DNA of 64,000 bases from Forficula auricularia (Eukaryota > Arthropoda > Insecta > Dermaptera > Forficulidae), in NCBI GenBank assembly GCA_024734495.1, contig JALMQS010000070.1, positions 14,689,486 through 14,753,485 on the forward strand, read 5' to 3'. The position numbers and the translations under genes were made by a program. Shown here piece after piece: positions 1,009 through 59,184 of the stretch. Numbering within the stretch: the first letter of the stretch is position 1; the number at the start of each line of letters is the position of its first letter. Below the pieces are notes generated by a model. The model saw nothing but the letters and a program-made list of their open reading frames with translations. It ran no database searches and was not told the origin of the DNA.

Positions 1009-1051
1009 AAACTCAATATATTTCGGATTATTAGTCCATCATCAGGAGTTT
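1009..1051 (-). ncRNA. hammerhead ribozyme motif, family A
   Basis: Minus strand: helix I AAACTC with GAGTTT (6 bp), core CTGATGA, extra T, helix II GGA/TCC, GAAA, helix III TA/TA with no loop, and U16.1-U17 before the cleavage point. All conserved core bases are present. Confidence 0.7.
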
Positions 1052-1074
1052 ACGAGTTAAAAGTTTTAACTTGT

Positions 1075-1117
1075 AAACTCCTGATGATGGACTAATAATC
1101 CGAAATATATTGAGTTT
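1075..1117 (+). ncRNA. hammerhead ribozyme motif, family A
   Basis: Plus-strand mirror of the previous motif: AAACTC + CTGATGA, helix II GGA/TCC, GAAA, TATA helix III, TT, then GAGTTT closing helix I. It is in the sense strand of the tafazzin intron. Confidence 0.72.
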
Positions 1118-1195
1118 GTATAAACCTCTTTGAGTTTTATTTCATTCACTGTGAAACTACACACCCTTTACTTTATTAATCAAAGAGGTTTATAC

Positions 1196-1238
1196 AAACT
1201 CAATATATTTCGGATTATTAGTCCATCATCAGGAGTTT
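1196..1238 (-). ncRNA. hammerhead ribozyme motif, family A
   Basis: Identical core and helices to the copy at 1009..1051, in the second inverted repeat of the compound element. Confidence 0.68.
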
Positions 1239-1296
1239 ACAGGTTAAAACTAATAATATTTAATCGCACGTTCAAATATTATTAGTTTTAACCTGT

Positions 1297-1339
1297 AAAC
1301 TCCTGATGATGGACTAATAATCCGAAATATATTGAGCTT
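1297..1339 (+). ncRNA. hammerhead ribozyme motif, family A
   Basis: The core is intact. Helix I has GAGCTT instead of GAGTTT, so it keeps three perfect pairs next to the core and one mismatch further out. Confidence 0.65.
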
Positions 1340-1789
1340 GTATAAACCTCTTTGAGTTTTATTTCATTCACTGTGAAACTACACACCCTTTACTTTATTA
1401 ATTTAAGGCAAGATATAGCCCGAAAGCTTAAAAAAAAATATATAATCAAGAAACCTATTGAAAAGATGTTTTCTTGTCGAGAGAAGCAAAGTTGTTGATT
1501 TTTAAAAGAAAATCAAGCGGATTAACTTTTTGTTTGATACGTAACCAGAAAAAATTTGGGGGGAGGTTACCCTTCGAGGGATTAGGGTATAATACTATGG
1601 ATAATCTCCTAGACTCTCAGATGTCCAGATTATTTTTTTTTTTATCAGTGTTTTTTTATTGAACGTTTATTTATATCTTGTAAAACTTCGATTTTTACCT
1701 CAATATTTAGGAGAGGGGGTTCTAACCCCTCCCACGCTGGCTACGGCCTTGGCTTGATGTATCAAAACATACACAAAACATAAATATAA

Positions 1790-1842
1790 CGAATATATAT
1801 ATATATATATATGTGTGTGTATATATATATATATATATATAG
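1790..1842. repeat. (AT)n/(GT)n microsatellite
   Basis: Alternating TA tract with a short GTGTGTGT interruption. Confidence 0.9.
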
Positions 1843-3079
1843 TTTTATTTGTTAAAATTAAGCTTCAAAAAATAAATAAATATTAATTAATTGAAAAGAT
1901 TTTATTGACGAGAGAAGCAAAGTTGTTGATTTTAAGAGTAAATCAAAGTGGGTGTCCTTTGTTTGGTTCACCTAAACACACACACAAACATATATAAATA
2001 AAAATAAATAAAAGTATAATTTCATCTATTAAGATTATGGTTTCGATGTTAGCCTTCAATAATTTTTAAAGAATTAGGTGTCTGTTCTAGGTGAAACATT
2101 TGAAATAAGAGTGGATTAAACTACTAGGGGATCGTACCCATACTAGGTGACCCGTTCAGAGGGAGGGGGTCTTCAAAATACAAATACCACGCTTGGTCAC
2201 AGGGTCTTCATCCCTTAGTCAACATCCTCTAGGGAAATCTCGCGCTTTTTCGAGCTTGTAATTATGATAGGTGTGCACGCACTTTTGTCGTCATGCGGCA
2301 AGCGCCGTATTAATTAATAAAGACAAATAGGAGCCAATTTTTTTTTTAACTTTCTGTTTGCAAAAAATGATTTAAAACCATATTTATGAATTACTACGTG
2401 AAAACTAGAAGGGGGGGTCTTGGCATATACTACGGGTGGCCACCGAGGGGGGGGGGGGTAAAAAATTGTAAAAAATGAGTTACGTAGTATGGGTATGTTC
2501 CCTAGATAGATTTTAGCCTTCATTCTCATTTTTTTTTTTTTTTTATATATTGAATTTGTTATTTCTCTTGAGTGTTCGTTCGTTAGAGTGAATGACCCTA
2601 CTTAGAAACGAACATTCATTTAATTGAGTCTTGGTGCACAAGAGAAAAAAAATAGTTCAAGTCGGACACACATACAGTGGACAGTACTTTTTATCATCTA
2701 ATATACTTGAGATAGCAAATTCGTTTTTATTGTCGTTGATAAGGAGAGAATAGATCAATTTGTAGAATTTGTTTATAATTTAATGTTTAATGGTTTGGAA
2801 ATCCCGTTAGGTAAAAAAAAATCACAAATTTGAAGCCCTCCCACAGTGTAATTTTAAAGAGATTTAATGTAAATTTACTTTAAAAAATAGCCTGATTTTA
2901 TTTAATGAGATCTTTACAAGTATATCTGTTATATTTATTACATACCCTATGCACTTATGAAATATTTTTTTATTTTTGACCACAAAATTTGATCCTTCCC
3001 AAAACAATCATACGTTTAAATTTAGTTGATTAATGTCCATTATAATAATTAATAAAATATTAACAAATTTTGGACAATA

Positions 3080-4055
3080 TTTTACTTTACCATACAGGAT
3101 ATGGTCAAGTATTGTAACCGTGCATGAAAAAAGTGTTTTTTTTCGAAATATCTCAAAAACGGCTGAAACTATTTTGTGTGAAATATGTATAGAGATAAAT
3201 AAAAAAATCTCCAAAATAATTTAAAAGATTTTTTAATTTTTTAATTTTATTTCCACTTTGTGAAACACCACTATAATCCGTTAAATAATTCCTGTGAAAC
3301 TATTTTGATTAAAAAAATTGAGCTAAACCATGGCATTTCGCTCTACAAAAAAGCTCTAATAAGTGAACATCGAAAAAATTATATTTTTCGGGATAATAAT
3401 TGTTTTGTCAAAATGTCTGTTAGTCTTTTATTCTGTGCGTTACCAAATTTTGTGGACGAGCTAGCTCAAAAACTAGTGTGAATATCATAACCAAATTTCA
3501 CACGTAGTTTTAGTCCATTGAGATTAAGAGCTGATTAGATTTTGGTGCATATCGAACACAAATAAAGGAGAGGGGGGGAGGGGTTAAAATTTAAAATTAT
3601 AATATTTTCAAACTAAAAAAATAAGAAATAAAAAATCAAATATACTATAAAATGATTAGTAGTTTTGGTTCATTGAGATTAAGAGCTGATTAGATTTTGG
3701 TGCATATCGACCCAAAATTAAGGGGGGTGCAGGGGGGGTAAAAATGAAAAATCTAGGCTATTTGAGCAAACTCAACCAAATTTTGTATACATAATCAGTG
3801 GGACCCCAGAAGTCTAAAAATGCAAAAATTAACCGCTTAAAATGGGGGCGGGGGAGGGGGGGGGTCAAAAAATGAAAATCTTGGCCATTTACCAAACTCA
3901 ACCAAATTTTGTATACATAATCAGTGGGACCCCAGAAGTCTAAAAATACAAAAACTAACCGCCACTTACACGATTATAAATAATTTTAGGGGCCGGGTTG
4001 TATGGTAAAGTCAAGTGGATGGTCACATCAGAACACGTCAGCTTATTAGTCTTCT
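3080..4055 (+). repeat. abundant repeat R1 with minisatellite and G/C homopolymers
   Basis: Begins TACTTTACCATACAGGATAT and ends with the reverse-complement-like GGTTGTATGGTAAAGTCAAG plus CACATCAGAACACG. The inside has GAAACCATGGCATTTCG, GACGAGCTAGCTCAAAAACT, and units of about 120 bp (GTATACATAATCAGTGGG) separated by runs of 7-14 G. Other copies lie at 4056..4700, 7166..7746, 16815..17634, 40310..41035 and 63119..63985. No coding sequence is evident and the class is unknown. Confidence 0.75.
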
Positions 4056-8651: not shown

Positions 8652-9311
8652 AATAAAAACAATCAAGAATTTACTATAAATTTATAAATTATGATAGAGA
8701 TAAGAATTTTACCAGGGGAAAGGGACTTGGAGACAAATAATTACATCAATATATTTTTATTAACATTTAAATTATAAAAACCATTAGACAGAGAAGTGGT
8801 TGTACTTTACAAAAGTAATGAACATTTTTTTACTCGATCCCAAGGAAGCTAGTTCTCCGTTTGACTACATTTGTGGTCCCCTCATTGCTATATGAATTTT
8901 TTTTATAAATTTGAAATTATAATTTCTAAGGCTTTACCTTCATTTTCAATCTACCATATTATTCGCGTAAAGACTTCGAAATTATAGTCCCAAATTTATA
9001 AACCATTTATATATAGATATGTTGTTTTTATATGGTTATTTACCTCGTTTGATAAGATATTTATTTGTCACCATTTCGATAACTCTTTTTATCATTTATA
9101 CCAATTTCAAAAAACAATCGATAACATTCACTTAAGACTATTTGTGTAATTGAAATTTATTATTATTTATATATATATATTTAGATTCCGTACAAACATA
9201 AATCGGTACACTATTAGAGTTGGAATGATAATTTTGGGGAGGCTAGAATTTTATGTGAGGTCAAAAAGAATTATTATTATTATTATTTCATTATTCGTGT
9301 CCATGATTAAT

Positions 9312-9524
9312 AATTAAAGGAATCGTAGGGAGTTGGACATGACTTTAAATTAAATACAAGTTTTCATTTAAATACGCCAAACGTTTCGTTGCTGGTTTGC
9401 AACTTCTTCAGTGGCTCATTTATTAAACTTATTTGTCAGCAAAGAAACGTTTGGCTTATTTAAATGAAAACTTATATTTAATTTAAAGTCATGTCCAACT
9501 CCATACGATTCCTTTAATTATTAT
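9312..9524. mobile_element. foldback element, hammerhead family E
   Basis: Arms AAAGGAATCGTAGGGAG ... on the left and the reverse complement ending CGATTCCTTTAATTATT on the right. They enclose a complete minus-strand hammerhead (9376..9415) and an eroded plus-strand partner ending GAAACGTTTGGC (9443..9456). A half copy of the arm sits at about 24275..24325, just upstream of the last tafazzin exon. Confidence 0.75.
9376..9415 (-). ncRNA. hammerhead ribozyme motif, family E
   Basis: Minus strand: helix I GCCA/TGGC, CTGAAGA, extra A, helix II GTTGC/GCAAC, GAAA, C/G helix III, U-U cleavage site. All core positions are intact. Confidence 0.7.
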
Positions 9525-16814: not shown

Positions 16815-17634
16815 ATAAGCTGACGTGTTCTGATGTGGCCATCCACTTGACTTTACCATACAACCTGGCCTCTCACTTATATTTAATATTTAATAAAATT
16901 ATTTATAATCATGTAGAGGATGCGGGTTAGTTTTTCCATTTTTAGACTCCTGAGGGCCCACTGATTATGTATATAAAATTTGATTGAGTTTGGTACAAGA
17001 GCCCATATTTTCATTTTTTGCCCCCCCCCCCCATTTTGGGCCGTTAGTTTTTGCATTTTTAGACTTCTGGGGTCCCATTGATTATGTATTCAAAATTTGG
17101 TTGAGTTTGGTAAATAGCCAAGATTTTCATTTTTTGACCCCCCTCCCCTCCCCATTTTGGGAGTTTAGTTTTTGCATTTTTAGACTTCTGGGATCCCACT
17201 GATTATGTATACAAAATTTGGTTGAGTTTGCTCAAATAGCCTAGATTTTTAATTTTTAACCCCCCTTAATTTTGGCTCGATATGCACTAAAATCTAATCA
17301 GCTCTTACTCTCAATGGACCAAAACTACGTGTGAAATTTGGTTTTGATATTCACACTAGTTTTTGAGCTAGCTCGTCCACAAAAATTTGGTAACGCACAG
17401 ACTAACTAACTAATAGACATTTTGACAAAAAAATTATTATCTCGAAAAATATAATTTTTCCGTTGTTCACATATTAGACCTTTTTTTGTAGAGCGAAATG
17501 CCATGATTTCGCTCAATTTTTTTAATCAAAATAGTTTCAGCCGTTTTTGAGATATTTTGAAAAAAAGAAGGAAAAATCAACTCTTTTCATGCACGATTAC
17601 AATACTTGACCATATCCTGTATGATAAAGTAAAA
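16815..17634 (-). repeat. R1 repeat copy with three minisatellite units
   Basis: Reverse orientation, from GACTTTACCATACAACCTGG to TGGTC-type terminus CCATATCCTGTATGATAAAG. C-runs (10 bases near 17023) separate the units. Confidence 0.72.
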
Positions 17635-20541: not shown

Positions 20542-20997
20542 ACGTAGAAGATAAACATCTTTAATTTATTCCTTAAAAAGTATGCATTTTTGTTAAAATA
20601 CTATTATAATAAACACTTATAATAGTATATATTTTCCTAAAATTTTTAAAAATAAATTATTTCAAGATATAAATTATTAGGTAAACGGACAAAAAATACA
20701 TTCCTTAATTAATATATTCATCCTTTATTTTGGACTTAATCAGGCACTAAAAATATTATATACATAGACAGACAAAAAAGAACTGGCAGCTTTTATATGT
20801 AATATTTTTAGAGTCTGATAAAGTACAAAATAAAGGATGAAACGATGTTCATGCATTAATTAAATATTGTATTTATTATTTGTCCTTTTACTTAATAATG
20901 TATATAATTATTTTCATTATTTATGTCCATCGATTAAATTAATAAGGTGTTGTAGGGAAATAAGGACAATAGCTTATGCAAATATTTTTCATTTTAT

Positions 20998-21034
20998 ACC
21001 AACGTTTCGTCAACTTTGTTGACTTCCTCAGGGC
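20998..21034 (-). ncRNA. hammerhead ribozyme motif, family F
   Basis: GCC + CTGAGGA, extra A, helix II GTCAAC/GTTGAC, GAAA, C/G, U-U, then GGT. Helix I has two GC pairs and one GU pair. Confidence 0.7.
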
Positions 21035-21052
21035 TCAAACAAATTAATTTCT

Positions 21053-21316
21053 CTTTACAAAAAGCCTAAGCAAAAAGAAAACGAGTAACCCTGATATCGC
21101 TCTATTTATATTCTAATCTCCCAAGAGGAAACATGAAAAAAACATTATATTTTTCAATATATAAATCTTAATTTGAATGTAACTATAAATACTGAAATAT
21201 TTGTGATAGACTGATGATGAAGGCAATGCCTTCGAAACTATAGTCTCTAGAAATAATTAAAAATTATTTTATTTAAAAACAGAAGACTCCATCTCTCATT
21301 TTATTTTTTAAACTTA
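21053..21316 (+). mobile_element. hammerhead-bearing insertion with 12-bp target duplication
   Basis: AAATTAATTTCT occurs at 21041..21052 and 21317..21328, and the host hairpin is continuous once the insert is ignored. The 264-bp insert carries one plus-strand hammerhead (21207..21249) and ends in a T-rich tail. A long target duplication with a single-orientation insert indicates target-primed retrotransposition. Confidence 0.72.
21207..21249 (+). ncRNA. hammerhead ribozyme motif, family D
   Basis: Helix I TAGA/TCTA, CTGATGA, extra T, helix II GAAGGC/GCCTTC with AAT loop, GAAA, helix III CTA/TAG without loop, cleavage triplet GTC. One of the cleanest copies. Confidence 0.75.
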
Positions 21317-21530
21317 AAATTAATTTCTTTGCATCTTTGTCATTTTATCAATATTCATTCTTAGCAAACACATATAGACTAGTCATTGAACAGATTGAAA
21401 ATATTTCCTATTAAAATATAAATATTAAAAAAGAAAATATTTTCAATCTGTTCAATGACTGGCCTATATGTGTTTGCTAAGAATGAATATTTATAAAATG
21501 ACAAAGATGCAAAGAAATTAATTTGTTTGA

Positions 21531-21567
21531 GCCCTGAGGAAGTCAACAAAGTTGACGAAACGTTGGC
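21531..21567 (+). ncRNA. hammerhead ribozyme motif, family F
   Basis: GCC + CTGAGGA, extra A, GTCAAC/GTTGAC, GAAA, C/G, U-U, then GGC. Helix I is three perfect pairs. Sense strand of the tafazzin intron. Confidence 0.73.
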
Positions 21568-21831
21568 ATAAAATAAAAAATATTTGCATAAGCTATTGCC
21601 CTTATTTCCCTACAACACCTTATTAATTTATATAATGTAATCAATTTTTCGGACGATAATATCTAATAGATTAGGTACTTAAAGTTTAACATCTTTCACC
21701 GTATCTTTGTTATTATTATTATATAGGACAATTAAATTATAAGTGTTAAGTTAACGGTAAACAAAAAATAAATTTTCACACATTTATTAGATGAAGGAGG
21801 AGGTATCAGCCAAAGTTGGATGCGCTGGGTT

Positions 21832-21879
21832 CAATAAAACGTTTCGGCCTGAATTTATTTGGCCATCTTCAGTTAATTG
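21832..21879 (-). ncRNA. hammerhead ribozyme motif, family H
   Basis: Helix I CAATTAA/TTATTG with one bulge, CTGAAGA, extra T, helix II GGCC/GGCC with a long loop, GAAA, C/G, U-U. Confidence 0.62.
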
Positions 21880-22390
21880 GGCTACAAAATTTACAAAAAG
21901 ATGTTAACATTGATATATTTTATGCTTATTATCATAATATTACAAATTGACCAAGTTGGTTGTTTAAACTTAGAGTTATACACAAAATGCGGTACACATA
22001 TGTGATCGAACCAAGCCTTGTCAAAAATAAAAATTGTAGCTTCATGCAAATGTATATCGTGACTGAGCCCAAATGTTCAGAATGAATGTAATGAGTTTAT
22101 ATAAATTTTTTTCTATATAATTAAATATTTGACCCTTATGGAAGGTCATCATAAATCTCAATATTATTTATTTACATTCGAGCAAATTAGAATTTAATTA
22201 CTTTTTAATTCATTCATTATTTTCATTCCATCAAATTATACAATCTCATGTCTACATATCACCATCTCCCAATTTATTAAAAAGCTCAAAACAGGCTTTT
22301 TATTTATTTATATATTAAAGTCAAGAGACTTGGTCAACTTGTAATATTATGATAATAAGCATAATAATAACATCTACTATATTTGTAAAT

Positions 22391-22431
22391 TAACTGAAGA
22401 TGCCCAAATAAATTCAGGCCGAAACGTTTTA
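22391..22431 (+). ncRNA. hammerhead ribozyme motif, family H
   Basis: TAA + CTGAAGA, extra T, helix II weakened by one change (GCCC/GGCC), GAAA, C/G, U-U, TTA. Confidence 0.55.
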
Positions 22432-22528
22432 TTCAGGGTGTTTTATTGAACCCAGCGCATCCAACTTTGGCTGATACTCTCCTTCATCTAATACAGTTCC
22501 GTCACAGCCACGAACTCTAACATTTCAC

Positions 22529-22642
22529 AAATTTATTTTAAGCATGCCGATAATGTTTCGGGAAGTATTCACTTCCCATCTTCAGCAGTTAGTGGGATAT
22601 TCCCCGAAACAATGTCTACATGGTTAAAATAAGTTTGTAAAG
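22529..22642. repeat. small foldback with hammerhead-like core (family I)
   Basis: Arms AAATTTATTTTAAGCATG and CATGGTTAAAATAAGTTTG. The minus strand has CTGAAGA, extra T, GGGAAGT/ACTTCCC, GAAA, but the bases after GAAA do not form a clear cleavage triplet. The opposite strand ends GAAACAATGTC. Confidence 0.5.
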
Positions 22643-22659
22643 ATATATATTTTTGAGTG

Positions 22660-23610: not shown

Positions 23611-23938
23611 TTGCTCAATTTCACTTATATCAGCCCGTCTCCAAAAATTACTTCAATCTTATCTATTTTTTGTTTACGATTAATTTTACGACTACAATAT
23701 TGTCTTACATACTAAAATATCAATATATATTACAGTATTTTTTTAAGCTTATGAATGGATAAGCTCGGTTATTCTTATTTTAATTTTATTTTTTTGAGAA
23801 ATATTTTTTTCTTCATTTTTCGAATTGCTTTTTACTTTATTTCTATTCGAGATGAAAAATTTTTATAATGTTTTTTTGGCATTGTCAAAGGAGACAGGAA
23901 GTAATTATGATTTGAACTACTTTCATTGACTTTTTGTT

Positions 23939-23977
23939 ACCCTGAAGAAGGAGAGAATAAATCTCCGAAACGTCGGT
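23939..23977 (+). ncRNA. hammerhead ribozyme motif, family G, 5' of tafazzin last exon
   Basis: ACC + CTGAAGA, extra A, helix II GGAGA/TCTCC (a compensated change from GGAGG/CCTCC), GAAA, C/G, GTC, GGT. TGTT and AACA further out can extend helix I. Sense strand. Confidence 0.7.
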
Positions 23978-38440: not shown

Positions 38441-38544
38441 TCATTTATGTATGTCATTTAATTATAAAAATTACTCAATTGAATGTAATGGAAGGCAGCC
38501 CAGGGCCCAGGGGTAGTGAGGAAAGAAAAAATTAACACATATAT

Positions 38545-38700
38545 AAATAAAGTAATTTATTGGAATCCTTCCGCCTTTCCCTTAAAACCGACGTTTCGGT
38601 GGATTTTTCCCTTCAAGGGGTCAATGAAGGAGGGAACAATCTTCCGAAACGTCGGTTTGAAGGAAAGGAGGAAGGATTCCAATAAATTACACCTTAATCA
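38545..38700. repeat. eroded hammerhead foldback, family G
   Basis: AATTTATTGGAATCCTTCC ... and its complement enclose CCGACGTTTCGG on the left and CCGAAACGTCGG on the right. The CTGANGA boxes are gone on both strands. Confidence 0.6.
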
Positions 38701-39399
38701 CTATAATTTATTGATTGTTTTTTTTTTATATTAAATAAATAGTTTTATTTATGAGAACTATCTCAAAACGTTTATTAAATATTCAAACGTTTCGGGAAAT
38801 AAATGTAAATTTGGAAAAATAGTTGCTATAAGAAATTATAAATCAACTATAAACAAATAAATATTTTTTAAATTTCCAAGATAATTTGTAAATTTATTTT
38901 CAAAATATTTATTTGTTTATTCTTCTTATAGTGCCATGCCCGAAAGGGTGTCGGCTCCTCTCCACATATACCTGTGCTGAGTGTGTTTAGCTGTTTTACA
39001 CAGGTATACGGGACCTACTTTTTAACCTCGGTTCCGAACGGCTATTTTGGAGAGGTTGTCTAGGCAATTATACTCTTGGTAGTTTGCCATTGCTTTGTTT
39101 ATAGTTGTTTTAATTCCTTCTTATAGCAACTACATTTTCCAAATTTTTATGGATAAAGGAATAATTTTTTTTCGAAACGTTTGGATATTTAATAAAAGTT
39201 TTGAGATTGTTTTCATAAAAGGACTATATTTATTTGATATCAAAGTTCCAATGGTATTTTATTAATATCAAATGAAGCAATATGTCTAATATAGAGTATA
39301 ACTAGAAAGTACAGTTCTCTGATGAAATTAAATATAAACTTGAATTTATTTGCAACGAAATTTTCTCTGGAGAGAGACGCACTGGTAGAACTTTTAATT

Positions 39400-39855
39400 G
39401 AAAGTAATGGAAGGCACCCCAGGGGAAGGGAGGAAAGAAAAAATTAACACATATATCAAATAAGGTGTAATTTATTGGATTCCTTCCTCCTTTCCCTTCA
39501 AACCGACGTTTCGGAGGATTCTTCCCACCTTCTTTAGGGTTTCAGGGAAACAAATAAAATGCTTCCTTCCTCTCTCCAGAGCAGTGTTTAAAAATTTTTT
39601 CTTCCTTAGCAGAAACATAGAAAAACAATTTTTTTATGCTTCTGCTAAGGAAGAAAAAAGTTTTAAACACTGCTCTGGAGAGGAAGGAAGCATTTTATTT
39701 GTTTCCTTCATTGACCCTTTGAAACCCTGAAGAAGGAGGGAAGAATCCTCCGAAACGTCGGTTTGAAGGGAAAGGAATTCAATAAATTACACTTTATTTG
39801 ATATATGTGTTAATTTTTCTTTCCTCACTACCCCTGGGCTGCCTTCCATTACTTT
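39400..39855. mobile_element. foldback element, hammerhead family G
   Basis: Ends AAAGTAATGGAAGGCACCCC and its mirror GGCTGCCTTCCATTACTTT. The left arm has a dead minus ribozyme (CTAAAGA, 39502..39540). The right arm has an intact plus ribozyme. Between them is a hairpin built on TTTTTCTTCCTTAGCAGAA. Confidence 0.75.
39722..39764 (+). ncRNA. hammerhead ribozyme motif, family G
   Basis: Helix I AAACC/GGTTT, CTGAAGA, extra A, GGAGG/CCTCC, GAAA, C/G, GTC. All conserved positions are kept. Confidence 0.75.
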
Positions 39856-40309
39856 CAATTATAAACTTGAATAATAAAGAGGATGTCCTGGGCTAGGTGG
39901 AAAAAACATATTATATATATTTTATGTGTTAAAGACTATGCTTTATTTTCAGTCTTTTTTTAATAAATTAATATTTTATGTGTTTTTTCCTTGAGCATGA
40001 ATACCGATCGTTTGTTCATTCACTTTTCAAAGTACAGAGATGGCACAATATAATTTTTTTTTATCTATTTATTTTTACTGTAGTGAACAGAAAGAGTAGT
40101 TAGGGGTTTGTATATTTTAAATTTTTATTAGTTTTGTTTATATTTTTCAAATGATTTTTATAAAGATAAAAGTAAATAAATATTTTATGAAATATTCATT
40201 TACTATGAGTTAGGTTTTCTAGGTCACTTGTTTCACGTTAAAAATTAAAAAAATAAAAGAGGTAAATTTTTTTTTCAATATATATATTTCGGGGGCTATC
40301 AACCCATCT

Positions 40310-41413: not shown

Positions 41414-42094
41414 ATATATAAAATAGAAAAGTATGTGGATATATATGTATGTGGAAACGATCTGATTGGCCAGTGCATAGCCAATGCCAAAGCGTTAAAT
41501 TATTAGAACGATTCTGATTGGTCAGATAGTGATCGTGCTTAGGCAATGTGTTAAATAAATCTTTCCTTATTCTTCCTTATTTTTGAATCAATTTCATTCA
41601 GCACATTCTTTCGATACTTACAGTAAGATTTTAAATTTCAATTATTAAATTGGTATGAACGAGACGCTCCCCGCCAGGGCTAGGTGACGCCGGGCCGAAG
41701 GCCCGGTCGTCAACTAGTTAATTAATAATAAGTTTCCTGTATTTGATTCGATCGCGAATCGAATGCAGGTGATTTTTGTCAGATATTAAGTGAAAATAAT
41801 ATCCGAATTTATATATTTCTGACTTGAAATAATGAAGTTAATTAATTTTCTAATTAACATATTAACGAGAATTGATTTTGATCGCGATTTTAAAGAAAAT
41901 ATATAAAACGCGATCAAAAACAATTCTCGTTAATATGTTAAGTTATTCTTTAATATATTAATGAGAAAATTATTTAACTTCATTATTTCTTACACAGAAA
42001 TATATAAATTCGGATATTATTTTCACTTAATATCTGACAAAAATCACCTGCATTCGATTCGCATCGAATCAAATAGAGGAAACTTATGATTTTC
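41058..42094. mobile_element. R2 palindromic MITE carrying a Helitron
   Basis: The R2 blocks AATTGTTTTTGATCGCG, CGAGAGTACTGCTGGTTG and CGAATGCAGGTGATTTTTG are present on both sides of a Helitron-like insertion. Confidence 0.6.
41406..41717 (+). mobile_element. non-autonomous Helitron-like element
   Basis: It starts around TCTATATATATAAAATAG (the exact 5' TC is hidden in a TCTA microsatellite, 41381..41412). It ends with the hairpin CCGGGCC-GAA-GGCCCGG (41690..41706) seven bases before CTAG at 41714..41717, followed by T. A 3' hairpin plus CTRR terminus is the Helitron signature. No Rep/helicase is present. Confidence 0.75.
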
Positions 42095-42910: not shown

Positions 42911-43086
42911 CTAATAATGGAACAACGAAAAAAAAACTCATATCAAATTCAGTTTATAATAAGTCAATTGGCTATTAATGTAAAATTATTATCAAGAAAA
43001 TTCAATAAATTCTTTCTTCAATATTAAATTTTAATACAAATTTTCAAAAGGTGGATGGTCAATGGAAGGGTCTTATAACCTATTTA

Positions 43087-43294
43087 GGGCCAGTTGTATG
43101 TCGGTTGGTAAACTCTTTTTAAACGTTGACAAAGGGTAAAACCTTATAATTCACCTTGTGCCCGGTGGGATGGCCAATAAGATTAAAGTTCACTCTCATC
43201 TGATTGGCCATCCCGCCAGGCACAATGTGAATTATAAGGTTTTAACCTTTGTCAACGTTTAAAAAGAGTTTATCAACCTACATACAACTGGCCC
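43087..43294. mobile_element. Harbinger-type MITE with TTA duplication
   Basis: TTA at 43084..43086 and 43295..43297. The 208-bp element is almost entirely a hairpin (arms about 90 bp, GGGCCAGTTGTATGTCGG mirrored at the right end) around a 20-bp loop. Confidence 0.8.
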
Positions 43295-43689
43295 TTAGTG
43301 TGTCTTTTTGATTTTTTTTTTTTTTTGTTATATATGAAAGACAATGTTAAAATTTTCATTTAGCGAAATATTTTTCTCTATTATAGAACAAAAGTGTAAA
43401 TATAACAAATTTTCGGAATTAAAAACTACATTCATACATTCATGTTAAAATTTTATGTAAAGATAGAAAAGAGCTCTAACACCAAAAAATAAGGTAATCA
43501 TGGTTTCATTTGAAGATATCATGATTTCTACTGTAGCTAATAACTTTAAATTTGTTATGAAGATTAGTTTTAAAGACTTAAATGTTTGTTAATAAATTAT
43601 TTATTATCATTTCCGTCACATAATTTCTATTAATTTGAAAGTTTATAATCAGGAAAATGTTAGACAAGTTTTTAGTGATGTGAAGCTTT

Positions 43690-43745
43690 TAGTTTATCAG
43701 CCGGAACGAATTTCGTCGACTTTGCCGACTTCTTCAGGGCTTCGA
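43690..43745 (-). repeat. degenerate hammerhead, family F
   Basis: CTGAAGA, A, GTCGGC/GTCGAC, GAAA, but TTCGTTCC follows, so the short helix III is disrupted. Confidence 0.5.
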
Positions 43746-44888
43746 AATAGTGCTTGCCAAAATTTAGACGAATGTGTGGCATGAATATTTGAAGGCCTGA
43801 AAAAGTCGGCAGCCAACGCAACGTTAGCCAACTCTGCTAACACGACTCACTTAAGACTGTCATAATATTCTTGTTAATAAAGTTTTTTCTTAAATTTTAA
43901 AGGATGAAATAAAACAACTTTTAAAATCAAGTTTTCATAACAATTTTACGATTTAAAAGTAACTTTTACAAAATTTCAGGTTTCTATCCCCATTCAGTGG
44001 GATGGCTACAAATTTCGGGTTCTTAAGCAAAAATTTTCACTTCTCCGTTTCCCCATTGGTAGTAAATGGCCTCAGAACCACAGGACCCGTATCTTTGCTT
44101 ATTCTTGCTATATAGTAGCAACTCCCAATAGTTTCGGAGAAATCGTGATGAAAACGGTTGTAACAGGGAGAAGTTGGAAGTTTTTTCTTGTTTCACCCCC
44201 TTTGAAATTTCAATTTTTAAAAAACTTGCTAAGCATTTAGGTCTTCAAAATGTCATACCAAATTTTAAGTCATTAGCTCCTTAAGAAAATGCAAGTTCAT
44301 TATTTCAGCCATATCTTATTTAAATAACTATTAAATAGGTATAGAAAATAAATAAAAACAGAGAAATTCAGAAAAGCTAAAAACAAAATCTTTTAAATAA
44401 ATGATTCGAAAAAATAGCATTTATATAATATTATTGCACTCTTAAACAATCGGATAAGCCAATAATATTGTTCATATTGTGTTTATGAATTTTCCCTTCA
44501 TCTATGGCCATAAAAAGAAATCGCAAGGTGCTAATTCGGACAATCTAGCTGGCCGTTTAATTGTACTTCCCCTATCAATCAAAGAATTTAGAAAACATTA
44601 GTCTCAGTGCAATTTAATATCTTAGTGCTGAACATGCATTTTGATGATACCAGAAAATATTATATAAATAGAATAATTTCTAATAACTGTTTATTTTTAA
44701 ATTTTTAGCAATTTTTTTTTTCATTTTTTTAATTAATATTCCCCAAGCTATTTTTAATTTTAAACATCTTTTGTATTTACACTTTTGTTCAATTATTATT
44801 ATAATTTACGTCCATAATTTGTATTAATTTAAAAGTTTATAACATGAAAATAAAAAAATTTAGACGAATGTGTGACATGACTATTTGA

Positions 44889-44927
44889 AGCCCTGATGAA
44901 GTCGGCAAAGACGACGAAACGTTGGCT
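44889..44927 (+). ncRNA. hammerhead ribozyme motif, family F
   Basis: Helix I AGCC/GGCT, CTGATGA, extra A, helix II GTCG/CGAC with a larger loop, GAAA, C/G, U-U. Confidence 0.68.
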
Positions 44928-47758: not shown

Positions 47759-47797
47759 GGCTGATGATGAAGACCAAGTCTTCGAAACTATAGTCTC
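47759..47797 (+). ncRNA. hammerhead ribozyme motif, family D
   Basis: CTGATGA, extra T, helix II GAAGAC/GTCTTC, GAAA, CTA/TAG, GTC. Helix I is weak (GG/TC). Confidence 0.6.
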
Positions 47798-49146
47798 AAA
47801 CAAATAAATAATATATATATACAGATATATCATCTCGATATATATGTGTGTATGTTTATTTGCATCAAGCAGAGGACAACCGCTTTGTTTCTCTTTGTGA
47901 TTTAAATATATTGTTGGGACACGCCCAATACAAGGCCCCGCTTGAGTTTCCCCTCTTCGAATGCATATTTTTTCGAAACCCTAAACATAAATTTCTATTT
48001 TGGTTTTATTACCTTAAAATCGATGTTAACACGGGTTCAAGTTCGCGTAATAAAGATTCCTTTATATTAGTTTTTTAATTGCAGTAACGCCTTAATTAAA
48101 TGTGATTTTAAACTGCATTTAGCGAGCAAAAACTTCCCTGGCCTTTCAATGCGTGTATATACTTGTTAACAAACTTTTGTTAACATCGATATTAAACTTC
48201 GCGTAATAATGGCTTTTGATTTATTTTAAGTTTTAATTGCAAGTGAAAAATGTGCCTTGTTGTCGACAATAGATTCATGAAAATATATTCGTTGGAGTTA
48301 GCGAATAAAGAGTTTATTTAAATAATATTTAAAAATGAAATGAAAAATAAAACAACGAATTCAAATAAATAATTTGCCTGAATATATAAATATAGTATAT
48401 CGACAATTATTCACAGGACGAAATATTTCTGACAATAGAGATTGTTAATTTTTTTTTATATATATATGTTGCAGTAAAAACCCGTTTTTAGTAAAAACCT
48501 ACCTTTATGGCAACTCAGAGTTTACGATTAAATTTTACGTAATTTTTCTAACCGATATCAACAAACAAAGAATAATTGACCTATCAATGAGAAGTGTTTT
48601 TGACTGCGCTTTATTTGAAAAAGATATTTTACTACGAGACTAATGCCGATTATGCTATACAAAATCGTGGAGTCTTAAATCTGACCAAGAGAAAAAAAGA
48701 TGCGTGATTCATACTGCATCCAACGTGCGTTTTAGCGGAGAGCCTGCTAGACATTCGGATGGATCACCCATCCGATGATCCATCCGAATGTCTAGCGGGC
48801 TATACGCAAAATGACGTTGGATTGTAGCTAAGTGGATCACATCTTTTTTCTCTCCTGGTCCAGATTTAAGACTCCACTGACTTTAATAGCATAATCCGCA
48901 ATAGTCTCGTGATAAAATATCTTTTTCAAATAAAGCGCGGTCAAAACACTTCTCATTGATAGGTCAATTGTTCTTTGTTATATCAGTTTGAAAAATTATA
49001 AAAATTTATTTAAGATCATTATTTCAAGTTAGAAATATATAAGTTCAAATATTATTTTCACTCAATATTTGACAAAAATTCCCTACAGTTGATTTGTGAT
49101 TGAATCAAATGTAGAAAACATTCGGTTTTCTAAGCATATGCCTAGA

Positions 49147-49947
49147 GCAGTGATTCTCAACCACTGTGCCGCGGCACTTTTGTGTGCCGCCAAATTTTAG
49201 AAATGAAACAATAAAAATTATTTTCTATGTACTTTTATCTAATGAGTTATTATTTTTTCCAGTTTAGTCATTCAGATCACATAATTTAATGTAAAACTAA
49301 ATAAATAAGCTTTAAAAATATCTTCAAAAATTTATATTTTGATAGGTTCGTAATCCATTTGTGATAACGGATACGTCTGTATATGAATTAACTTCGAATG
49401 AAGATGAAGAACTAATTTCGCTTTTTAATAATCGAGATTTAATTTCAAAACATTCGGAAGAGTCAATTAATTCATTTTGGATTAAGATTAGATGCGATTA
49501 CCCCATAAGAGCCAAACAAGCTTTAAAATTATTATTACAATTTTCTACATCTTATTATTTGTGGGAATTCGGATTTTCAGCATTAACCAATATAAAAACG
49601 AAAAAAAGATAGAGATTTTTAAATGTAGATGACGAAATGAGAGTGGCATTATCATTTTTACGACCAAATATAAACCAAATTATCAAAAATCATCAAGTTC
49701 AAATTTTGCATTAAATCTATTCTTATAATTAATTTGTAATTAATAACTCAATAAACATTATGTTGTCTTTGTAGTACATATTATTTTATTTTACATTGAA
49801 AATTATTATCATAAACTATTTTACACAGTAACACAGTGTATTATTGTTAAGTAAAATTCTTTTAAACTTATCTTATTGTTAGTGTGCCGCCAAATTTTGA
49901 AATTGTTAAAAGTGTGCCGCAATAAAAAAAAGATTGAAAACCACTGG
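49147..49947 (+). mobile_element. hAT element with transposase remnant
   Basis: Ends are CAGTGATTCTCAACCACTG and GAAAACCACTG. Flanks GCCTAGAG and GTCTAGAA match at 6 of 8 bases. Subterminal GTGCCGCGGCACTTTTG and GTGTGCCGCC blocks mark the same family as 59216..60071. Confidence 0.75.
49343..49714 (+). pseudogene. hAT transposase C-terminal fragment
   Basis: The frame reads VRNPFVI, DEELISLFNNRDLIS, SFWIKIRCDYPIRAKQALKL, then TSYYLWEFGFSALTNIKTKKR, an in-frame TAG (49610), and VDDEMRVALSFLRPNI. This matches the C-terminus (dimerisation region) of ZBED-type hAT transposases. The catalytic N-terminal and central parts are absent and one stop interrupts the rest. Confidence 0.82.
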
Positions 49948-50465
49948 TCTAGAATCTTCATTTTCGACCTTCCGCCTCACTTCGCGTATCTATTTCCAAA
50001 AAATTTTAAACGAAAATGTCAAAAATGAGAAGAAAAGTTGTAAAGTATGTAATTTTTGACATTTTCGTTTAAAATTTTTGAAAATAAACATACGAAATGA
50101 GGCGGAAGGTCGAAAATGAAGATTCTAGACCTTTGAACCAACCTCAACCAACATCAGTAAACTCTAGTTGCCATAAAGGTATTCAGCGAAACGCGTTTTT
50201 AGTAAAAAACGGGTTTTTACTCCAACATATATATATAAATGAGTTTAAAACAAAAGAAAATTATTCGAGATTTGAAGTTAGGATGTATACGTGTATGTAT
50301 GATTAACAAAATATATTACATAAAATCAATGCCAAAATTTCATTGTTCAAGGCTAGATTTTCAGATTATATGAATGTTATAATATATATAAATATTAAAT
50401 GTTGAATTTTATACATACCTATATTAATATTTAAATTGATATTATAATGTATCAATAATATATTA

Positions 50466-50695
50466 TTGAAGGAGACAATAAAAGAGTGTGTCTTCTGCTG
50501 GAATTATAAATTTTATTTATTTATAACGAGACTATAGTTTCGAGGGCTTTACTCTTCATCAGTCTATTACAATTAATTCCCGTGAATCAATTGTAATAGA
50601 CTGATGAAAGAAGCCTCAAACTATAGTCTGGTTATAAATAAATAAAATTTATAATTCCAGCAGAAGACACACTCTTTTATTGTCTCCTTCAATAT
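50466..50695. mobile_element. foldback element, hammerhead family D
   Basis: GAAGGAGACAATAAAAGAGT ... mirrored by ACTCTTTTATTGTCTCCTTC. A minus hammerhead is at 50528..50564 and the plus partner at about 50600..50635 is eroded. The right end leads into GCTACTCTCGGC, the module seen next to other D copies. Confidence 0.72.
50528..50564 (-). ncRNA. hammerhead ribozyme motif, family D (weak helix II)
   Basis: CTGATGA, extra A, helix II reduced to GAG/CTC, GAAA, CTA/TAG, GTC, TC. Gene-sense strand of PXK. Confidence 0.5.
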
Positions 50696-51353
50696 ATAAA
50701 AATTCTGCTACTCTCGGCACAAAAATTATATTAAACAGGGTGTTTGAAATGACTTCATACATAAAATAATTAAATAAAAAAAATATTTTTGCCGAGAGTA
50801 GCAAATTACTTCAATATTTAAAGAATAATTCAAAGAGTGCGTCTTTTACTTGTCAAAACTATACAAAACTTACATTAATTTAATTATTGTCATTTTTTCA
50901 GTATAGTAGTAGATTTTTGAATATGTTTTATTGATTTTGTGTAATTTATTTTGTTAATGATAAATATTCTATAATTTTTAGGAAAAGAAATTGTCAATTT
51001 TAATAATAATAATTCTATTTGGGTAAATAAAATAATCTAATTCTCTCTCAATAATAAAATGATTTCACTGAGTGTTTAAAAGATTTCTCAACCATCTATA
51101 GTATAAATAAATAAATAAAAATCTTTTATCAAAATAATATCTATCTCTGTACAGGTTTCAAGTATTGATAGATCGATCAAATCAAATTGCATGGGATGAG
51201 ATAGTGAGAATCGATAAGTTACGAAAATTCGCTGTTGTTTCTAGCTATATTTAATAAGACTTAAAAAGGCTGCAAAATTAGGAGCCGAATCTTAATAGGA
51301 AATAATAAATATAGACATTTATTTGATTCAATGATAAATTTTAACATAATTAA

Positions 51354-52077: not shown

Positions 52078-53239
52078 TTAATAGAAAATCATAAATATAG
52101 ATATTTATTTGATTCAATGATAAATTTTAACATAATTAACAAGTAAAATTTAAGTTGATTTTCTTATATGGGCCGTGGAGATGACAGAAAAAAGATTATT
52201 TTTATACAGGGTGTTAATAAAATGTGGGCCGCTCATTATCGAAATGATCCTAAAAGTTTATATTAACGTTATATGTATGCCCATCTTTCAGTCTGTGTTT
52301 AAAAAAAACCTATTATCTCAAGTAGAGATTATAGTAATATTTTTTAATGAAGAATAACTCTCAGTATCAACATTTCCTGTAAAGAAAAAAGAATGTGAAA
52401 TTTATCATTATCAAATTTCAAACTGGCGGCCATTTTAATCTAGTATTTATTAATTTCTCAATCCCTCTAGAAATGCACTTGTACTTAGGGATTAAGAAGA
52501 AGTTCATCTTGAATCGATAACTATAAATAAATATTAATTTATATTGATTAACATAAAAAAATTGAACAGAAAATGGTATTAGATTTTTTCTATTTATACC
52601 ATAGGTGGTTTTCTCCAAAAAAAATAAAAGCTTAAACATAAAAAGATACGAATGGTTAATTTTAAATGAATTTAAAAACTAATGGTGCTCAATTTCACTG
52701 CATGGTTTAAAGTTACTCATGACATAATTTCTACAATTTTTATAGATTATGGGAAATAAGAACAATTTTTAAATCTATTTTCATTCAAAAAGCATTTTTA
52801 GATTTAGTTTTTCAATATTTCTAATGATTAAAAATAAAAATAAATGTGCAAAGTTCCTTTTAAATAAAATATATTAAAAATAAATAAATAAAAATCTTTG
52901 TTTTATTTACTTATTTATTTCTTTTTGTAAACCACATGTATAGCAGGAAACAATATAAATTTATTTAAGGTACCTATGTATATGAATTCAATATTTAATA
53001 AAAAGATTTTTCTTGACGAGAGTAGCAGAGTAGTTAATTTTAAAATCAATGAGAGTGTCCTCAGCTTGATGCAAATAAATATATACTTATCGATATATAA
53101 ATGAACATATAATTTTATTTGAGAATTAAAACATACGGCTTATTCGTGAGAAAGACCGCCTAATAGAGAAAAAACTAGAAGATGAATAAAGGGTGTGTAG
53201 TTTCACAGTGAATGAAATAAAACTCAAAGAGGTTTATAC

Positions 53240-53282
53240 AAACTCAATATATTTCGGATTATTAGTCCATCATCAGGAGTTT
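53240..53282 (-). ncRNA. hammerhead ribozyme motif, family A
   Basis: AAACTC/GAGTTT helix I, CTGATGA, extra T, GGA/TCC, GAAA, TA/TA, U-U. PXK-sense strand. Confidence 0.72.
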
Positions 53283-53309
53283 ACAAGTTAATACTGAGTA
53301 TTAACTTGT

Positions 53310-53352
53310 AAACTCCTGATGATGGACTAATAATCCGAAATATATTGAGTTT
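53310..53352 (+). ncRNA. hammerhead ribozyme motif, family A
   Basis: Exact mirror of the motif at 53240..53282. Confidence 0.72.
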
Positions 53353-53772
53353 GTATAAACCTCTTTGAGTTTTATTTCATTCACTGTGAAACTACACACC
53401 CTTTACTCTATTAATTAACATCATGTTTCACCTAAAACCTATACCACTTTCCATAAGTAAAACTAGAAGATGAAGGCCAATACTATAGTCTCTAACAAAT
53501 AAAATTTTATAAATATACATAATATATATTCATTTATATATAAATAGGTAAGGTTTATTTGCATCAAGCAGAGAAGACCCTCTGTGATTTTCTCTTGAAA
53601 ATATTATTATAAATTTATAGTGGTTGCAATACAGGGTAATTTATAAAAATATATCATTCATGAAAATTTCAATTTACTTGTAACTAAATAAATGAGTAAA
53701 TTTAAATTTTACCCATTATCTTTGATCTTTTATTTCTTTCTAGTTAATTAATTTTAGGATATAAATACTAAC

Positions 53773-54024
53773 TGAGTTCCGGCGGACAAGAATCGGGCAA
53801 TTGGTTACAGGTCGCTGACTGGAGAGGCTGTCCGAAGGCCATTTCATATAACACGTGGCCAAAAGAGTAAGCGTCAACTGCCTCGAGGGATATCGAAACC
53901 CGTTTTAATTGTACAATATATGGCCTGTAGAATGTTGGTAATCCAAATAGAGAATTTTCAAGATCAGTCAATCGTATTCGTCGATTTTTTTCATCCAAAA
54001 TTAAATTACCAGTATGGAGATGGC
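53773..54024 (-). CDS. PXK: PXK exon (pseudokinase catalytic and activation region)
   Basis: 252-base exon between the acceptor TTTTTTCCAG and the donor GTTAGT. It completes YPYG, then reads HLHTGNLILDE, RIRLTDLENSLFGLP, and EAVDAYSFGHVLYEMAFGQP. This is the subdomain VIb-IX region of the PXK family. The catalytic loop that would be HRDxxxxN in an active kinase is GHLHTGN, so the proton-acceptor Asp is absent. The DFG position is DLEN. Both changes are typical of PXK, which is regarded as a pseudokinase. The donor GTTAGT is weaker than GTAAGT, but the phase (1) matches the next exon. Confidence 0.95.
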
Positions 54025-54429
54025 CTGGAAAAAACATTGTAGAAAAATTATTATTATTTATTTTTTCAAGAGGAAATCAATGATGATGATTTTGATGCAC
54101 ATAAACATAGTTATATATAAAATTTTATAAGAATTTTTTTTATTGATTGTTTTGTAATTAAAATGAATAAAAATCTTTTAAAAAAACAATTTTCAAAACG
54201 TTTAATAAATCAGACATTTATTTCGGGAGAATTTCTCCTTTATCAATGCAATTTTTCAAGTGAAATGTATAACAACATAGCCTATATTCAAAATATTTAA
54301 TTTCTTTATGTTGTTTTCTAAACCATAGAGAAAGCAACTTATTTTCTTTTTTTTACTTGAAAAATTGCACTGATAAAGGGAAAAATTTTCCCGAAATGTT
54401 TATTAATCATATTGAAGTTTGTTTTTTAA

Positions 54430-56733: not shown

Positions 56734-57039
56734 TTAATTTCTCAAATCTGTAAAGTAAATAGAAGCTATATGTTTGTAATATAAAAAAAATATGTAATAT
56801 GGACATCTTATGACTACCATACAGCTGCTCTCCCCAGTATATTAAAATTATTTGCCCAATATTTTCACAAGTTTCTAAAGAATAGCTGTGTAAAATTTGA
56901 TCCAAATTGGACAAAGGGTTCAAATTTTTAACTCTCTAATTTTTGGTTCGATCAATCAAAATTTAATTAGCTCTTAATCTCAATATTAAATATCTAAATA
57001 TAAAATTTAGTTTTGATACCTTTATTGGGTTATTTAGAT

Positions 57040-57430
57040 AATTAAAGTTGTTATAGGGAAATAAGGACTATATTTTTTATGCATATAATTTATATTTTAT
57101 TGCCAACGTTTCGTCAACCTTGTTGACCTCTTCAGGGCTCAAATAGTTAACTTCCCTGCATATTTGTCATTTTTATAATGATTATTTCTTAGTAAACATA
57201 TCAAAGAAAAAAAATTTTCATTCTGATTGATGTTGACTTGCCTTGATATGTTTACTAAGAAAGAATAATTATAAAAATGACAAATATGCAGGAAAGTTAA
57301 CTATTTGAGCCCTGAAGAAGTCAACAAAGTTGACGAAACATGGAAATGAAATATAAATTATCTGCATAAAAAATATAGTACTTATTTCCCTATAACAACT
57401 TTAATAATTTAATCGATGGACATAATTAAT
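57040..57430. mobile_element. foldback element, hammerhead family F
   Basis: The left arm GTTGTTATAGGGAAATAAGG is mirrored by CTTATTTCCCTATAACAAC, around a hairpin with TTAACTTCCCTGCATATTTG. The left ribozyme is intact and the right one (57312..) reads GAAACATGG. Confidence 0.75.
57102..57138 (-). ncRNA. hammerhead ribozyme motif, family F
   Basis: GCC/GGC helix I, CTGAAGA, extra G, helix II GTCAAC/GTTGAC, GAAA, C/G, U-U. PXK-sense strand. Confidence 0.7.
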
Positions 57431-57905
57431 CAAAATTAATAAAAAAAAGTTATTTAGATAGTGCGTTTAGAAAAGTTGGTAACACCAATACTATTTAACA
57501 GACATTTTGACAAAATAATTAATATCTCTTAAAATAAAAAATTTTCAACGTTTAATATAAGTTTTATTGTAGACCGAAACACCGTGAATTCGTTCAATTT
57601 TTTAATCAAAATAATTTTACCCGTTTTTGAGATATTTTAAAAATAAGAACCAAAAAAATACTTTTTTCATGTATGATTACAATAGTTCATCATACTCCTA
57701 CATGGTAAAATAATAACAATGAGTGAATGTGTGTATAATGTATATTAGAGGATCTCTAAGGGAATAATAATTTTTTTAATTTTTTTTCAATTCTTTATGG
57801 TGTGTTTCTTTTGTTATCAACTAATGTATTATTGTTTGTATTTGGTCCACACGCATACACTTGTATTATTTCGCTCTAAAAAATATAATCTGTGAATCAA
57901 CAGGT

Positions 57906-57945
57906 GCTGAAGAAGGACTGTTCCGTCCGAAACCTTTGCAGCGCA
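57906..57945 (+). repeat. hammerhead-like core, degenerate
   Basis: CTGAAGA, A, GGAC/GTCC, GAAA, then CCTTTGCAG in place of CG-U-H, so no valid cleavage site. Confidence 0.4.
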
Positions 57946-58089
57946 AACGTACACCATATTAAATACACATAAAAAAACTACACCAAATAGTTTTCTTCTA
58001 ATCTAACATCTGTTATAAATTTTTCCGAAACACCTCAAATTTCACACAAACCACAATTATATTAATATATTTAACTAAACGGATCTTAC

Positions 58090-58333
58090 CATAAGGATAG
58101 CCTTTTTCTTGTAAAAACAGTAAAGTTTCCAAAATTTGACAACCATAAAATGCAATCTCTGATAATGAAAAATTTCTTGTTTGCCTCGGGTTAGCATATT
58201 TATTAAGAAAGGGAGCCTTGGGCTTAGCTAAGCAAAGCAGATCTCGTACGCTGCCAGACGGATGGAAAGTTTTCACCGTGAAGCCACCTGCCTCATTGCA
58301 AGAGACAAACTCAACTGGTACAACGCCGGGATG
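58090..58333 (-). CDS. PXK: PXK exon (N-lobe and hinge of pseudokinase)
   Basis: 244-base exon after the acceptor TGATTTTAG, with donor GTAAGATC. It begins HPGVVPVEFVSCNEAGGF and continues TVKTFHPSGSVRDLL, KPKAPFLNKYANP and QILETLLFLQEKGYPYG. The pattern G.L.DL...KPK.PFL.KY.NP and Y.C/RQILE.L.FL..KG.PYG is diagnostic for the PXK kinase-like domain. It starts in phase 0 and ends on the first base of a Gly codon that the next exon completes. There is no Lys/Glu pair of a canonical ATP site in the part visible here. Confidence 0.95.
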
Positions 58334-58460
58334 CTAAAATCAAAAACAAATTAACAAATTAAAAATTTATATTATCATTTCCGTATATAATTTGTATTAA
58401 TTTGAATGTTTATAATAGAAAAATAAGGACAAGTTTTTATGTCTGACTTTTTTATTTATC

Positions 58461-58499
58461 AACCAACGTTTCGTCGACTTTGCCGACTTCTTCAGGGCC
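58461..58499 (-). ncRNA. hammerhead ribozyme motif, family F, near PXK acceptor
   Basis: CTGAAGA, extra A, helix II GTCGGC/GTCGAC, GAAA, C/G, U-U, helix I CC/GG plus two GU pairs. It lies in the sense strand of PXK about 130 nt before the 3' splice site at 58334. An eroded inverted partner (GAAACGTTGGCTGATAAAT) is at about 58706. Confidence 0.68.
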
Positions 58500-59146
58500 T
58501 CAAATAGTCATGTCACACATTCGTCTAAATTTTTTTGTTATCTTCGTTACCTTTGAAGACCATCAGAACACAAATTTCAAAAAATATTTGGCACATTCAC
58601 AAAAACAATTTTTCTTTCTTTCCTTTTTATATTAACAATTACATTAGATTTAAAACAGAAATAACATATATAGAATGAGGCAACACTTTTTTATTTTTTT
58701 TAAACGAAACGTTGGCTGATAAATAAAAAAGTCACAGATAAAAACTTGTCTTTATTTTCCTATTATAAACTTTCTTAATTATATTTATTTGACATTTTAT
58801 TTTAGACTTTTTTATATATTACTTTATTAGATAGGATACTATAAACGTTTTAAATTAGAAATTTGGTGTTGAATGAGGCTCTTGATTTTTTTTTATTTGA
58901 TTTATTTAAATAAATATTATGTTTTAGTATTAGTTGGTTATTTCTTATTACAAGCTTTGATAAAAATACAAATTATAATGTGTTAACTGTGGAAAAGGAA
59001 TGAATTTCTGCATAAAAAATTGTACTATATTATGAAAAACCAGAGTGAGTTTTCTTTTCTTTTCTTATTTTGTCTCTTTGTATCTTGAAATATGACATGT
59101 GATTGTTAAATTTCTTGACTGTAATTAAGATTATGTTTCCCTTGTA

Positions 59147-59184
59147 GACTGAGGATGGCGTGAGAATATCCGCCGAAACGTCTC
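59147..59184 (+). ncRNA. hammerhead ribozyme motif, unpaired family
   Basis: CTGAGGA, extra T, helix II GGCG/CGCC, GAAA, C/G, GTC, helix I GA/TC only. No inverted partner was seen. Confidence 0.55.

Follow-up and report, generated by a model that had tools for sequence, protein, structure and literature searches.

The 64,000-nucleotide stretch of the Forficula auricularia genome analysed here (GenBank assembly GCA_024734495.1, contig JALMQS010000070.1, forward-strand positions 14,689,486 to 14,753,485; hereafter the window, numbered from its first letter) contains 22 copies of a minimal hammerhead ribozyme motif, most of them within short inverted elements whose two units lie head to head, as well as an open reading frame (ORF) related to tafazzins and the remnant of a mariner-type transposase. 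Minimal hammerheads dispersed through animal genomes and in the pseudo-long terminal repeats (pLTRs) of Penelope-like elements (PLEs) have reportedly been described by Cervera and de la Pena in 2014 and by Lunse et al. in 2017. An original prediction, made from the letters of the window alone, held that these motifs belong to non-autonomous relatives of PLEs that spread through self-processed, possibly circular RNA; the first half of that proposal agrees with the anatomy described below, and the second is not supported.

The motifs far exceed chance expectation, and the copies that the original prediction named near 1075, 21207 and 39722 are all present. A loose pattern (CTGANGA...GAAA) scanned over the window gave 34 matches against 3.32 expected, a number reached in none of 100 shuffles. 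A strict definition (CTGANGA, zero or one extra base, stem II of at least 3 bp, GAA, a loopless palindromic helix III, and H17 not G) retained the 22 copies, whereas 200 dinucleotide shuffles averaged 0.165 and never gave more than two; a tighter one (stems I and II of at least 3 bp, helix III of at least 2 bp) retained 17, compared with none in 200 shuffles. Loose matches such as 22585, 30973 and 57907 do not pass the strict definition; the first of these is a hammerhead-like core on the minus strand (22556-22585) that sits in a weak palindrome (22524-22641).

In every strict motif (22/22) the predicted extra base follows A9 and precedes stem II; a hammerhead core with an additional nucleotide is described for one viroid ribozyme, that of the plus strand of chrysanthemum chlorotic mottle viroid (CChMVd). 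Helix III is a loopless palindrome, as proposed, but its length is 2-4 bp (ACGT, ATATAT, ACTATAGT) in 21 of the 22 motifs rather than the proposed 1-3 bp, the degenerate copy 43737 having 1 bp. Pairing of stems I and II was examined in nine sequences, chosen by us as one per group or subgroup, by comparing own partners with partners swapped between groups. Own partners paired at 31 of 36 positions in stem I and at 27 of 27 in stem II, whereas swapped partners paired on average at 1.31 of 4 and 1.62 of 3 positions, so that both stems stay paired across groups. Five copies (35129, 43737, 47761, 50562 and 59149), with only 0-2 bp of stem I, may be inactive.

Similarity around the motif sorts the copies into about six groups (A, six copies; B/C/H, seven; D, four; E/F, three; G and K, one each), with B linked to C weakly, through the tail described below, and some groups distantly alike; the proposal of at least eight unrelated families was therefore overstated. 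The covariance-model check that had been suggested brought no confirmation: Rfam gave no family at the gathering score and no hammerhead family among 44 matches at E values up to 10, and thus neither supports nor names the motifs. The Rfam matches to microRNA families, where alignments were shown, proved to be inverted repeats. Because stem II differs in length between groups, aligning 13 motifs with MAFFT displaced the GAAA in groups A and B; the comparison of own and swapped partners was therefore used in place of a covariance model. Of two PLE-type patterns, the first matched three stretches in viral contigs and a further two in genome contigs, with stems unscored, and the second matched nothing in the viral contigs; the five matches, in contigs of 46-65% G+C, were judged by eye to be due to chance.

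Inverted head-to-head elements hold 18 of the 22 strict motifs, and 17 of these 18 face away from the centre of their element; only the group D copy at 21211, which lies within insert C, does not. The flanks of 14 elements of the hammerhead families (including D3, D4 and E2, which lack a strict motif, and leaving out H3) were compared for the longest direct repeat within 75 nt outward. Direct repeats of at least 12 bp flank seven of the 14 elements (A1, A2, B, C2, D1, D3 and E) but only one of 182 swapped pairs of flanks. Among 17 other inverted repeats, a hand-picked subset, only the small palindrome n6 had such a repeat (Fisher p 0.011 for 7/14 against 1/17; 0.028 without B).

Where the boundary repeat (8-16 bp) adjoins the arm ends, a further asymmetry appears. 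In all ten such inserts, namely the seven with repeats of at least 12 bp together with C, D4 and n6, exactly one arm carries a tail of 32-53 nt and the other a tail of 0-1 nt. The tail is on the left in A1, B, C, D1, D3, E and n6 and on the right in A2, C2 and D4, and tail sequences are alike within groups. Ten one-sided tails out of ten have a probability of 0.001 if each arm gained a tail independently with probability one half, although A1 is composite and the repeats of C and D4 have lengths that swapped flanks reach too. The score omits D2, whose 9-bp match lies away from the arm end, and E2, F, G and H2.

Table 1. Hammerhead cores, palindromic inserts and related inverted elements of the window
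Feature	Position	Strand	Flanking direct repeat	Tail (left/right)	Remarks
Core, group A	1021-1045	-			Strict
Core, group A	1081-1105	+			Strict
Core, group A	1208-1232	-			Strict
Core, group A	1303-1327	+			Strict
Core, group B/C/H	9384-9411	-			Strict
Core, group B/C/H	21005-21031	-			Strict
Core, group D	21211-21237	+			Strict; within insert C
Core, group B/C/H	21534-21560	+			Strict
Core, group G	21842-21872	-			Strict
Core, group E/F	22728-22755	-			Strict
Core, group E/F	23942-23970	+			Strict; outside any recognised inverted element
Core, group D	35129-35155	+			Strict; stem I 2 bp
Core, group E/F	39727-39755	+			Strict
Core, group B/C/H	43711-43737	-			Degenerate; stem I 0 bp, helix III 1 bp
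Core, group B/C/H	44893-44919	+			Strict; outside any recognised inverted element
Core, group D	47761-47787	+			Strict; stem I 2 bp; outside any recognised inverted element
Core, group D	50538-50562	-			Strict; stem I 2 bp
Core, group A	53252-53276	-			Strict
Core, group A	53316-53340	+			Strict
Core, group B/C/H	57109-57135	-			Strict
Core, group B/C/H	58469-58495	-			Strict
Core, group K	59149-59178	+			Strict; stem I 2 bp; outside any recognised inverted element
Insert A1	797-1404		12 bp, 785-796 / 1405-1416	45 nt / 1 nt	Composite: two head-to-head pairs of group A hammerheads; second tail copy 900-943
Insert A2	53187-53458		16 bp, 53171-53186 / 53459-53474	0 / 53 nt	Palindrome; two group A hammerheads
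Insert B	9282-9515		13 bp, simple ATT sequence	34 nt / 0	Hammerhead in left arm; right arm begins at GAAA (read by eye)
Insert C	20903-21631		8 bp, a length often reached by swapped flanks	32 nt / 1 nt	Inverted ends with two hammerheads; D-group copy 21211 inside
Insert C2	57041-57448		12 bp, 57029-57040 / 57449-57460	0 / 43 nt	Palindrome; hammerhead 57135 intact, 57312 broken past GAAA
Insert D1	34946-35228		14 bp, 34932-34945 / 35229-35242	45 nt / 0	Palindrome; group D hammerhead
Insert D3	33931-34108		12 bp, 33919-33930 / 34109-34120	44 nt / 0	Palindrome centred on the helix III sequence ACTATAGT; arms end inside ribozyme; no strict motif
Insert D4	26748-27236		9 bp, a length swapped flanks also reach	0 / 47 nt	Left arm with mutated ribozyme (CTGATAA); right arm begins about 2 nt before predicted cut; no strict motif; contains n6
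Insert n6	26921-27046		13 bp, 26908-26920 / 27047-27059	46 nt / 0	Small palindrome nested in D4; no ribozyme; tail group-A-like (match 26936-26962)
Insert E	39346-39859		13 bp, 39333-39345 / 39860-39872	51 nt / 0	Palindrome; hammerhead 39727 intact, left-arm copy mutated
Element D2	50459-50698		None placed	D tail right (50691-50719)	Palindrome with hammerhead 50562
Element G	21785-22493		Not found		Inverted pair: hammerhead 21872, mutated copy 22394
Element F	22653-23618		Not found		Inverted pair: hammerhead 22755, mutated right copy; other palindromes inside
Element H2	58404-58774		Not found		Left arm with hammerhead 58495; right arm begins at stem II base
Element H3	43663-43828				Head-to-head pair; hammerhead 43737 degenerate; left out of flank-repeat test
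Element E2	38477-38690		Not found		E-group palindrome; ribozyme degenerate or truncated; no strict motif

The many other hammerhead-free inverted repeats of the window and its mariner-type transposase remains would suit fold-back DNA transposons, similar to miniature inverted-repeat transposable elements (MITEs), that carry hammerheads by chance. However, DNA transposons usually make target duplications shorter than 12-16 bp, and MITE-like elements combine a short target duplication with symmetrical terminal inverted repeats, whereas the elements described here have repeats of 12-16 bp in seven cases, shared by n6 alone among the 17 other inverted repeats examined, and a one-sided tail unlike a terminal inverted repeat. 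The MITE-like reading is therefore disfavoured and scarcely credible.

The motifs, with their paired stems, the head-to-head layout, the long flanking repeats in half of the tested elements and the one-sided tail match the published anatomy of PLEs, and point to a PLE protein as the mover, to priming on both strands and to two start sites. The motifs are probably minimal type I hammerheads in the pLTRs of short PLE derivatives that lack coding capacity and were inserted on both strands by target-primed reverse transcription. The PLE protein, acting in trans, would nick both DNA strands at positions offset by about 8-16 bp; reverse transcription would start on each strand inside the element RNA, at either of two sites 32-53 nt apart; and the two complementary DNAs (cDNAs) would meet head to head, inside the ribozyme or upstream of it, giving a palindromic insert with outward ribozymes, a one-sided tail and a target-site duplication. 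The rule of one tail suggests that each insertion combined a long start with a short one, and the unequal 5' extent of the arms of B, H2 and D4 fits two separate cDNAs.

A palindrome could also arise from a single priming event followed by snap-back, in which a PLE-derived cDNA folds back and serves as its own template. A similar mechanism, self-priming, is invoked for junction palindromes in PMC3846280, there on an antisense template, and snap-back would account for the near-perfect arms of the best palindromes (98.7% identity in A2, 97.9% in A1). A simple copy, however, should give a tail on both arms or on neither, in contrast to the ten one-sided inserts, and the unequal arms of B, H2 and D4 are likewise unexpected, although an unpaired loop could explain them. 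Snap-back is thus an unlikely origin, if one to be taken seriously.

Several observations weigh against insertion by a PLE protein on both strands. Four of the 22 motifs lie outside any recognised inverted element; half of the tested elements (7/14) lack a direct repeat of at least 12 bp (longest repeat 8 bp in C, 9 bp in D2 and D4, and 7 bp in E2, F, G and H2); and the repeat of B is a simple ATT sequence. Neither a reverse transcriptase (RT) nor a GIY-YIG domain was recognized in the 10 of 100 ORFs (at least 65 amino acids) that were scanned with Pfam. At 12-16 bp, the duplications exceed the 8-10 bp given in PMC3846280, and at 32-53 nt the tails exceed the 30-40 bp given in PMC11167929. PMC11167929 also reports no difference in start sites between strands in vitro, so that coupling of the two starts in vivo would be new; the same result argues against a fixed rule.

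It may tentatively be proposed, as a rather doubtful extension of both-strand priming, that each insertion is one coupled event carried out by a dimer of the PLE protein, with the proximal start on one strand and the distal start on the other, that the folded hammerhead is a stop that sets many arm ends, and that the helix III palindrome can anneal the two cDNAs, as in D3. If so, the ribozyme would shape or join the two cDNAs instead of making circles. Dense palindromic inserts with readable boundaries constitute a genomic record of both-strand priming, of start-site coupling and of the effect of the ribozyme on cDNA ends, questions that can be addressed by plain counting across the whole genome.

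By definition, the whole ribozyme is present in each of the 22 motif-bearing copies, and their source RNAs were therefore uncut at that point when copied; for this reason ribozyme cleavage was rejected as a general rule for making arm ends. Other arms end within the ribozyme: the right arm of B at GAAA, the right arm of H2 at the base of stem II, the D copy 53482 at A15.1 and the right arm of D4 about 2 nt from the cut, with D3 centred on helix III and its ends ambiguous because the centre is palindromic. Nine of 11 hand-placed arm ends fall no more than 11 nt from the predicted cut (p 9e-5, calculated post hoc), a count that omits five weaker D-group matches (with starts roughly 15-56 nt below the cut) and both arms of n6; widened, it becomes 9/16 (p 0.006) or 9/18 (p 0.015). 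A K-group match at 49951 lies outside every count, and only two arm ends are within 2 nt of the predicted cut. This clustering is suggestive at most, and may reflect arrest of the RT by the folded RNA, cleavage, or pairing of the cDNAs at the palindromic helix III.

Predicted folding likewise bears on what the ribozyme can do. RNA of the A2 insert, the one insert folded, is predicted to form a single long hairpin (-180.3 kcal/mol, compared with an average of -44.9 for shuffled sequences) that hides the ribozyme. Among four short stretches folded alone, those of C and E gave stems I and II as a hammerhead requires; that of A gave stem I, but its stem II was extended by additional pairs across the core, and the D copy 21211 paired otherwise. 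Any cleavage by these motifs would, by analogy with published systems, depend on a dimer of motifs on the same strand or on the PLE protein.

Spread through circular RNA, as in retrozymes, would require same-strand tandem hammerheads that cut out a unit RNA, which is then circularised and reinserted. Insert A1 does contain same-strand pairs of group A hammerheads, 222 nt apart on the plus strand and 187 nt apart on the minus strand, and these spacings fit the sizes of animal retrozymes (PMC7229834). However, no other same-strand pair of the same group lies within 700 nt among the 22 motifs, helix III is loopless, and the palindromic A2 insert is predicted to fold as a hairpin. Because a circle of the retrozyme type depends on two hammerheads of the same strand separated by one unit, which A1 alone provides, spread through circular RNA is not supported, and a retrozyme-type origin is very improbable.

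The window has a G+C content of 26-33% in 4-kb steps. An ORF at 24373-24774 matches a Pfam acyltransferase family and has 93 relatives in a protein search, many of them nameless; the named ones are nearly all tafazzins or members of the tafazzin family, the best being from insects (stick insect, 64% identity; planthopper, 63%), and a nameless ENA protein shares 98% identity across 81% of the query. The mariner-type transposase remnant (Pfam Transposase_1) is at 34369-34563, between the D3 and D1 inserts. Two ORFs (53771-54076 and 58016-58333) were considered as PXK-like kinases, a reading that was not confirmed: neither has a Pfam match, and 58016-58333 has an unconvincing best PDB match (E 0.029) and no relative in the protein search. 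Sequences matching the tails of groups D and A occur without a hammerhead at 50786-50803, 61513-61558 and 32697-32721, and are perhaps strongly truncated copies. Long inverted repeats with neither a hammerhead nor a direct repeat of at least 12 bp are found at 41724-42091, 43086-43295, 48529-49008 and 49946-50131, and a tandem repeat of about 121-126 bp, apparently one unit on both strands, at 3732-3962, 16926-17266 and 63436-63896.

Compared with known systems, the elements of the window have a clear but little-described setting for a known ribozyme. PLE-type minimal hammerheads are familiar: thousands occur in many metazoan genomes, mostly dispersed and some in PLE pLTRs (PMC7761336), and those of the window share with them a very short palindromic helix III and dispersed copies, such hammerheads being thought to cut as dimers (PMC7761336, PMC6155905, PMC6466107). 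Hammerheads combined with one-sided tails in palindromic non-coding inserts appear in no title or abstract among the matches listed, although the combination may still be published. Animal retrozymes (PMC7229834) are also small non-coding elements with type I hammerheads, but they form direct tandem repeats, about 150-450 bp in size, and in invertebrates mostly possess a usable helix III, whereas the inserts of F. auricularia mostly have their units head to head and a helix III that is loopless, and same-strand tandem units are confined, among the 22 motifs, to the pairs in A1. The closest parallels are the Pen families of Adineta vaga, PLEs whose inverted pLTRs mostly lie head to head and which have 8-10 bp duplications and a 31-bp tail on one inverted pLTR (PMC3846280, in which hammerheads have no occurrence), and the Anolis PLE PAc, whose protein cleaves and extends both strands, with reverse transcription beginning within the RNA at two sites, which set the tail (PMC11167929). 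PAc, too, has a hammerhead adjoining the region where reverse transcription starts; it lies at the start of the ORF, cuts only with the protein and is dispensable for insertion in vitro. Unlike these PLEs, the inserts described here, of 126-729 bp and with duplications of 12-16 bp at seven elements, contain no ORF that was found. They have in common with PLEs inverted, mostly head-to-head units, a target-site duplication (at least 12 bp in 7/14) and a tail on one unit, and in common with minimal PLE-type hammerheads a core with paired stems I and II and a very short palindromic helix III.

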